NCBI RefSeq assembly: GCF_025998175.1
Contig: NZ_AP026695.1
Location: forward strand, 1,118,760-1,182,759
Origin: Nitrosopumilus zosterae
Lineage (GTDB): Archaea > Thermoproteota > Nitrososphaeria > Nitrososphaerales > Nitrosopumilaceae
Reading direction: 5' to 3'
DNA: 64,000 nt
Shown: in pieces, positions 19,634 through 47,104 of the stretch
How the letters are laid out: every line of letters starts with the position of its first letter
Numbering within the stretch: the stretch's first letter is position 1
Made by a program: the position numbers and the translations under genes
Notes under the pieces: model-generated
Seen by the model: only the letters and a program-made list of their open reading frames with translations
What the model was told of the DNA's origin: nothing
Databases searched by the model: none

Positions 19634-19915
19634 TGTGAGCTGGAGCACGACACGCTGCTACGGCAGAGGAAACTCCTCCCTCCATACAGGAAATGTGATC
19701 TGGAGATAGATAATCAGAGATGATTGGCAACGGAGCAGAAAAAAATCCAATATGGCGCACTATGATGGCAAAACCTGAGGTTTCCATAAAAGGAATGAAA
19801 AAAGCCGCCCCACATGGAGCAAGGCCAAACAGAACTTTAAGTTCCTGTACTAGGTTCAGGTAGGCTGCAAAGCGAAATATCGTGAAAACAGAAGGAGGGT
19901 TACTCCCAGCACACA
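19634..19915 (+). ncRNA. rnpB: RNase P RNA
   Basis: The catalytic RNA that trims the 5' ends of tRNA precursors. Helix P1 is formed by TGTGAGCTGG (19634-19643) and CCAGCACACA (19906-19915) with one mismatch. The conserved core is visible: GAGGAAACTCCTCCC near 19666 (CR-I/P4 strand), the ACAGAA element near 19824, and ACAGAAGGAGGGTTACTCCC near the 3' end (CR-V/P4 partner; CCCTCC pairs with GGAGGG). The size, about 282 bases, fits archaeal RNase P RNA. A T-rich stretch (TAATTTTTTAATTTT) follows and is the probable terminator. There is no separate obvious promoter after the methyltransferase gene. Confidence 0.9.
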
Positions 19916-46757: not shown

Positions 46758-46973
46758 TTACTGTAGATCTTTTTTATTGATTCCACTAGTTTCAATTTCA
46801 TATCTTAATGCAGCAGGAAGATCCATGTACTTTTTGTTAACCATTTCAATTATTTGATCTTCGGGGACATTAACTTTTTTTAATAATTTTCCACGTTGAT
46901 GAGCATAAGCATTTTTCCAAAAACCAGCACCGTCCAACGTTTCAATTTTTGGCATGTATTTTGTGGGTTTCAT
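46758..46973 (-). CDS. Small protein, unknown function, upstream of the tRNA-binding protein
   Basis: 71 residues (or 65 from the ATG at 46955). It is charged and mainly helical: MPKIETLDGAGFWKNAYAHQRGKLLKKVNVPEDQIIEMVNKK is its first half. There is no membrane segment or known motif. It is probably co-transcribed with the tRNA-binding protein. A branched RNA fold lies 20 bases upstream of its start (46993-47071) and could belong to its leader. Confidence 0.6.
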   Translation of the reverse strand: MKPTKYMPKIETLDGAGFWKNAYAHQRGKLLKKVNVPEDQIIEMVNKKYMDLPAALRYEIETSGINKKDLQ

Positions 46974-46992
46974 ATTTTTTCAAATTTTAAGT

Positions 46993-47071
46993 GACTGTGA
47001 CGGAAGAATGGCAAACGCCATTGGAACTGGAGTTACTGTTCCGGATTTTAGGCATGTTGCCCATCACAGTC
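46993..47071. ncRNA. Candidate structured RNA with a four-way junction
   Basis: GACTGTGA (46993-47000) pairs perfectly with TCACAGTC (47064-47071) and closes a domain with three inner hairpins. These are AATGGC-AAAC-GCCATT (47007-47022), GGAAC...GTTCC (47023-47027/47038-47042) and GGCA-TGT-TGCC (47051-47061). A competing helix CGGAA/TTCCG (47001-47005/47039-47043) excludes the second hairpin, as in a switch. Either strand fits a promoter: a TATA-like CATATTTTTTC before the plus strand, or TTAAATATATTAG (47093-47105) before the minus strand. On the minus strand it would be the leader of the 71-residue gene. It is not a tRNA (no T arm). I know no named family it fits. Confidence 0.5.
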
Positions 47072-47092
47072 TATTTGCAATGCAGTTGGAAT

Positions 47093-47104
47093 CTAATATA
47101 TTTA
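47093..47104 (+). promoter_or_regulatory. TATA box of the SRPBCC gene (and, reversed, of the RNA candidate)
   Basis: CTAATATATTTA lies about 30 bases before ATG 47128, consistent with a leaderless mRNA. The element is nearly symmetric, so it could also serve transcription in the other direction, which would start close to 47071, the base of the structured RNA. Confidence 0.5.

Follow-up and report, generated by a model that had tools for sequence, protein, structure and literature searches.

The locus and its genes

Within the window, that is, the whole 64,000-nucleotide stretch of Nitrosopumilus zosterae DNA that was analyzed, a real RNA lies among protein-coding genes (Table 1). In the main group of genomes, the order is a divergent SRPBCC gene, the RNA, a gene for a protein of 71 amino acids and a tRNA-binding gene. 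The product of the tRNA-binding gene carries the Pfam domain tRNA_bind and is of the MetRS C-terminal type, and the product of the small gene (65-71 amino acids) matches no Pfam or NCBIfam entry. Past the 3′ end of the RNA, the first possible ATG (46973) follows after 19 nt, in agreement with the original prediction that the RNA would end about 20 bases before a two-gene unit, and the conserved start of the 71-amino-acid gene, MPKIE (46955), after 37 nt.

Table 1. Coordinates in the window of the RNA, its structural elements and the neighboring signals (A3, a MAFFT alignment fitted to no structure).
Feature	Coordinates	Strand	Sequence or position	Support
RNA	46993..47071	-	5′ end at 47071; 79 nt	conservation, fold z, covariation
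Promoter box, TATA-type	47089..47103	-	AAATATATTAGATTC, 18-32 nt upstream of RNA	
P1 5′ strand	47062..47071	-	GACUGUGAUG	8/10 pairs with two-sided changes on A3
P1 3′ strand	46993..47002	-	CGUCACAGUC	covariation on A3
P2 5′ strand	47051..47061	-	GGCAA-c-AUGCC, one bulged base	6/10 P2 pairs with two-sided changes (A3)
P2 3′ strand	47010..47019	-	GGCGUUUGCC	covariation
A-rich internal loop	47043..47050	-	UAAAAUCC; partner side 47020-47022	nearly invariant
P3 5′ strand	47038..47042	-	GGAAC	4/5 pairs with two-sided changes (A3)
P3 3′ strand	47023..47027	-	GUUCC	covariation on A3
Apical loop	47028..47037	-	AGUAACUCCA	contains UAACUCC
One-sided 7-nt bulge	47003..47009	-	AUUCUUC, between P2 and P1	
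Probable TATA box of leaderless 71-aa gene	46983..46990	-	TTAAAATT, just 3′ of RNA	
Conserved 65-71-aa gene	46758-46955	-	between RNA and tRNA-binding gene in main group	

The promoter box AAATATATTAGATTC occurs once in its own genome, even with one mismatch permitted. Across 98 loci, the motif TATTRGA ends at a near-fixed distance upstream of the RNA, 20 nt in 67 of them and 13-21 nt in 93. An archaeal TATA box at this position would start transcription at about 47071-47074; a minus-strand box that would place the start at the closing stem had been predicted, and it is indeed present, at the right distance, and conserved. The box stays with the RNA even where the DNA on its far side differs, as at L006, L012, L017 and L041, where other DNA separates it from the SRPBCC gene or no SRPBCC gene is found nearby. 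Its conservation extends well beyond a plain TATA element, into a downstream GATTC part, and may point to a promoter of unusual strength or to a regulator of its own. The second box, TTAAAATT, lies about 30 nt upstream of the conserved start of the 71-amino-acid gene, is conserved in the genus alignment, and is probably the TATA box of that gene. There is no strong T-run 3′ of the RNA (the longest run within +1 to +25 is at most three T in 91 of 98 loci), which makes read-through possible in the main group.

Distribution among genomes

Among 60 genomes of the same genus, a 116-base query recovered the RNA in 53, always as a single copy, and it gave no match in 40 genomes from other families of the order. 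A covariance model (R1), searched against 400 genomes of the order, finds it in 138, again at one copy per genome. These matches fall into 11 genera, all in the Nitrosopumilaceae, the family to which the window itself belongs. The best E-values reach 1e-25, and even the most divergent genera remain clear at 44-60 bits. A second covariance model (R2), built on 29 diverse sequences, added no further family among 400 genomes of the class, and with laxer filters gave nothing better than E > 1 in 31 selected genomes, such that neither R1 across the order nor R2 across the class reveals a homolog beyond the family. A pattern scan of named genomes places the RNA in Nitrosopumilus, Nitrosarchaeum, Candidatus Nitrosomarinus and Candidatus Nitrosomaritimum, and also in Ca. 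Nitrosopumilus salaria and limneticus, in CSP1-1 and in casp-thauma3. The scan also returned a few chance matches in bacteria, which the covariance model did not confirm, and spread by viruses was rejected since none of four pattern matches in viral contigs fits the model. A mobile repeat is likewise ruled out by the single copy in the window's own genome.

The RNA sequence is conserved, while its flanks can be aligned among close relatives only. The RNA is kept in most genera of the family and is cleanly missing in others, including entire genera that have complete genomes, and is thus not universally required. Lengths among relatives range from 73 to 83 nt.

Strand and conserved fold

We infer that the RNA is transcribed from the minus strand, from 47071 down to 46993. 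The minus-strand sequence folds at -30.1 kcal/mol, compared to -16.1 ± 2.9 for shuffled sequences (z -4.8, none of 200 as good), and the plus-strand sequence at -28.4 (z -3.1). The strand is fixed by the wobble pairs: in variable pairs of the rod described below, reading on the minus strand gives 96 G·U cells and 10 A·C cells, a ratio that is reversed on the plus strand. This asymmetry, together with the promoter spacing, rules out an RNA on the plus strand, where the original prediction had considered a stand-alone RNA; the stand-alone character holds, but on the opposite strand.

Comparison among relatives points to an unbranched rod as the conserved structure, running from P1 (10 bp) through a 7-nt bulge, P2 (10 bp) and an A-rich internal loop to P3 (5 bp) and a 10-nt apical loop. 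RNAalifold already prefers an unbranched fold with 25 sequences. In a hand alignment of 61 distinct RNAs, made on the rod and therefore with counts biased towards it, 1471 of 1523 rod cells are paired (97%) and 18 of 25 rod pairs show two-sided changes. On A3, 92% of rod cells are paired, 90 cells carry a two-sided change against a shuffled mean of 25, and 18 pairs have two-sided changes where shuffles give 10.7 ± 1.6. Rod covariation on A3 is 0.416; shuffling lowers it to 0.192, and sliding the partners to 0.054-0.104. Among 2926 column pairs, ranked by an APC-corrected G-test without a phylogenetic null, rod pairs take ranks 1, 2, 3, 7, 8, 9, 10, 13, 16, 18, 22 and 24. Among the single-stranded elements, UAACUCC in the apical loop is identical in all 61 distinct sequences and the A, C and U at three positions of the AUUCUUC bulge are invariant in the same 61; the internal loop UAAAAUCC is cut to about 4 nt in two genera.

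The original prediction had instead drawn a branched RNA with a closing stem of eight base pairs, three inner hairpins and a competing helix. All of these elements are present in the sequence. The closing stem is 10 bp long rather than eight, since a U·G/U-A pair and a covarying G-C/C-G pair follow. For the window's own sequence, the branched fold comes to -30.1 kcal/mol and the rod to -28.8, a margin of 1.3 kcal/mol, so that a reader of this single sequence would pick the former, and in this thermodynamic sense two folds do compete. Among the 61 relatives, however, only the rod is kept. The two arms drawn as separate hairpins pair with each other in the rod, and the supposed alternative helix is in effect P2. 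For the AAUGGC-GUUU-GCCAUU hairpin, 81% of cells are paired, one pair is two-sided and just 13 of the 61 sequences have it complete, whereas P2 is 96% paired with six two-sided pairs and is intact or has at most one broken pair in 57 of 61. The small GGC..GCC hairpin hardly varies and is little informative. By base-pair probability, 40 of the 61 sequences prefer the rod. Relatives keep the RNA, but the compensating changes follow the rod, and the branched four-helix structure is rejected by covariation.

Variable neighbors and alternative explanations

In most genomes, a same-strand gene begins within 40 nt 3′ of the RNA, which counts against a stand-alone RNA, although which gene this is varies. 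The 71-amino-acid gene was not found in g33, g34, g28 or L060. In g33 and L060, the tRNA-binding gene comes next, whereas g35, g36 and g42 have none of the SRPBCC, 71-amino-acid, tRNA-binding or TBP genes near the RNA. At L099, the next gene is the TBP gene, in convergent orientation, and at L107 an opposite-strand, convergent gene ends 5 nt past the RNA. Conversely, g28 and g34 have the SRPBCC and tRNA-binding genes in the same neighborhood with neither RNA nor promoter between them, the RNA-less gap in g34 being about 95 bp. The variable neighbors, together with RNA-less sites that keep the flanking genes, mark the RNA gene as an independent unit. Some individual loci are unusual. In one g35 genome (L119:1997-2646), a same-strand 23S rRNA gene precedes the RNA by about 148 nt and the usual promoter box is missing; the RNA may share a transcript with the rRNA there, or the contig may be mis-joined. 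At L044 (G026:C117), the RNA sits amid transposase-like fragments and a tRNA, with its usual neighbors absent. Two g33 loci carry tRNA genes of about 100 bases close to the RNA (L094:2440-2537 and L120:1253-1352), which, given their length, probably contain introns.

This context bears on whether the RNA could be a cis-acting leader, a riboswitch or protein-sensing element of the unit formed by the 71-amino-acid and tRNA-binding genes, with the two folds as its switch states. Its position just upstream of the first of these genes (27-37 nt in the main group) or of the matched part of the second (31-45 nt in g33 and L060) would suit a leader, as would the lack of a clear terminator and the two folds within 1.3 kcal/mol in the window sequence. 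The branched state, however, is not conserved, and the TATA-like box of the 71-amino-acid gene separates that gene from the RNA. In g35, g36, g42 and L099/L103, a different same-strand gene or none comes next, the neighbor is convergent at L107 and L099, and in g28 and g34 the tRNA-binding gene is present although the RNA is not. This comparison does not support the original prediction of a riboswitch or translation-linked leader, in that downstream genes vary by genus and are convergent in some; a riboswitch was rejected given the changing neighbors and the RNA-less sites, and a cis-acting leader of any kind is improbable. Another alternative is that the fold is incidental to protein coding, either in a short conserved coding region or in an extension of the divergent SRPBCC gene; in its favor is a plus-strand frame that spans this part of the window. 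The length of the RNA varies from 73 to 83 nt, which shifts every frame, changes track the helices on both sides, and the SRPBCC gene is about 1 kb off or not found nearby in several RNA-bearing genomes. Coding is refuted by these indels, which are not multiples of three, and we give it practically no credence.

Comparison with known RNA classes

As originally predicted, this is an undescribed structured RNA and not a tRNA, SRP RNA or RNase P RNA. Rfam 15 gives no family above threshold, and nothing relevant on this stretch of the window even at E ≤ 10; nine relatives searched at E ≤ 5 likewise give no relevant match. ARAGORN and Rfam find only a tRNA-Pro in the window and no tRNA at 46993-47071, and an unbranched rod without a cloverleaf excludes that class. 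SRP RNA and archaeal RNase P RNA (19635-19914, strand +, 187 bits) are stable structured RNAs of the same genome, present separately and distinct from this one. A modification-guide RNA of the H/ACA or C/D type in some unusual form would be compatible with the size, the stand-alone gene and the conserved internal loops, but is very improbable, as no Rfam guide family matches. A C/D box sRNA was rejected because there is no D box and the C-like GUGAUGG is lost in g35, and an H/ACA sRNA because the bulge is one-sided, no unpaired ACA follows the stem and no convincing rRNA complement was found, with both GGAGUUA and GGAUUUUA absent from 16S and 23S rRNA.

Trans-acting sRNAs are known in archaea, such as sRNA154 and sRNA162 of Methanosarcina mazei. 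These share with the RNA a stand-alone intergenic gene, small size, structure and a conserved exposed loop, although they come from a different phylum and an Rfam search shows no relation in sequence or structure. According to a review of archaeal sRNAs, not a single thaumarchaeote had been surveyed for such RNAs as of 2012 (PMC3432209). Orphan trans-acting RNA candidates reported elsewhere were supported in the same way, by intergenic position, covariation and varying neighbors, and the main text of that paper makes no mention of Nitrosopumilus or Cenarchaeum (PMC2864571). The open-access papers on thaumarchaeal non-coding RNA that were searched contain no description of this RNA.

Candidate function

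The explanation that we consider likely is a stand-alone, trans-acting small RNA gene of about 80 nt with its own minus-strand TATA-type promoter. Comparison of the sequences shows that the RNA is conserved, lies on the minus strand behind a promoter, has a rod structure and is independent of its neighbors; we infer that it is also expressed and acts in trans. Transcription from this promoter would yield the ∼80-nt RNA, and the rod would expose three conserved single-stranded elements: the UAACUCC loop, the UAAAAUCC internal loop and the AUUCUUC bulge. The pyrimidine-rich apical loop is then predicted to pair with purine-rich, GGAGUUA-like mRNA sites and so alter translation or stability, a mechanism that we offer tentatively. 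Bacterial sRNAs with C-rich loops, such as FsrA and RsaE, pair with Shine-Dalgarno sequences. The likeness lies in an invariant pyrimidine-rich loop at a hairpin tip that could pair with purine-rich sites; there is no homology, many mRNAs of these archaea are leaderless, and for the Nitrosopumilaceae RNA no conserved target was found. In its own genome, TGGAGTTA occurs 78 times compared to 44 for the reversed control. One copy falls on the start codon of the neighboring glycosyltransferase gene, 480 nt from the RNA; although the window shows this match, just three of 93 relatives retain it, and it was rejected as a target. Among 30 of the 78 sites that were inspected, one other is near a start codon. 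No convincing complementarity of the RNA to rRNA, SRP RNA or RNase P RNA was found.

About equally likely, as the other of two sub-mechanisms within the trans-acting explanation, the loops may serve as a protein-binding platform. The RNA would then be the structural component of a small ribonucleoprotein, either a housekeeping scaffold or a decoy for an RNA-binding protein, and not an antisense regulator. Invariant sequence in all three single-stranded elements, the near-invariant promoter, the single copy and the lack of a found target are consistent with such a role, as is the position about 148 nt downstream of a 23S rRNA gene in one g35 genome. Its absence from whole genera with complete genomes argues against it, and inspection by eye revealed neither a kink-turn nor another known protein motif. 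A bolder proposal, which we consider rather unlikely, is a ribonucleoprotein core or RNA-based control system that is specific to the Nitrosopumilaceae and unlike any known, with UAACUCC as its active or binding site.

Implications

The RNA represents a new family of a known general kind, that of stand-alone structured small RNAs. Nitrosopumilaceae are ammonia-oxidizing archaea, among the most abundant archaea in seawater and responsible for much of marine nitrification, and no described regulatory RNA of the family was found in the open-access papers searched. The single copy, the near-invariant loop and promoter, and the patchy presence among genera make the RNA a ready experimental target, and cultures of Nitrosopumilus would allow tests of its transcript, its partner protein and its targets. 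For the transcript, remapping existing RNA-seq data with the gene annotated would suffice, and the R1 and R2 models provide a tool for annotating the RNA in Nitrosopumilaceae genomes.
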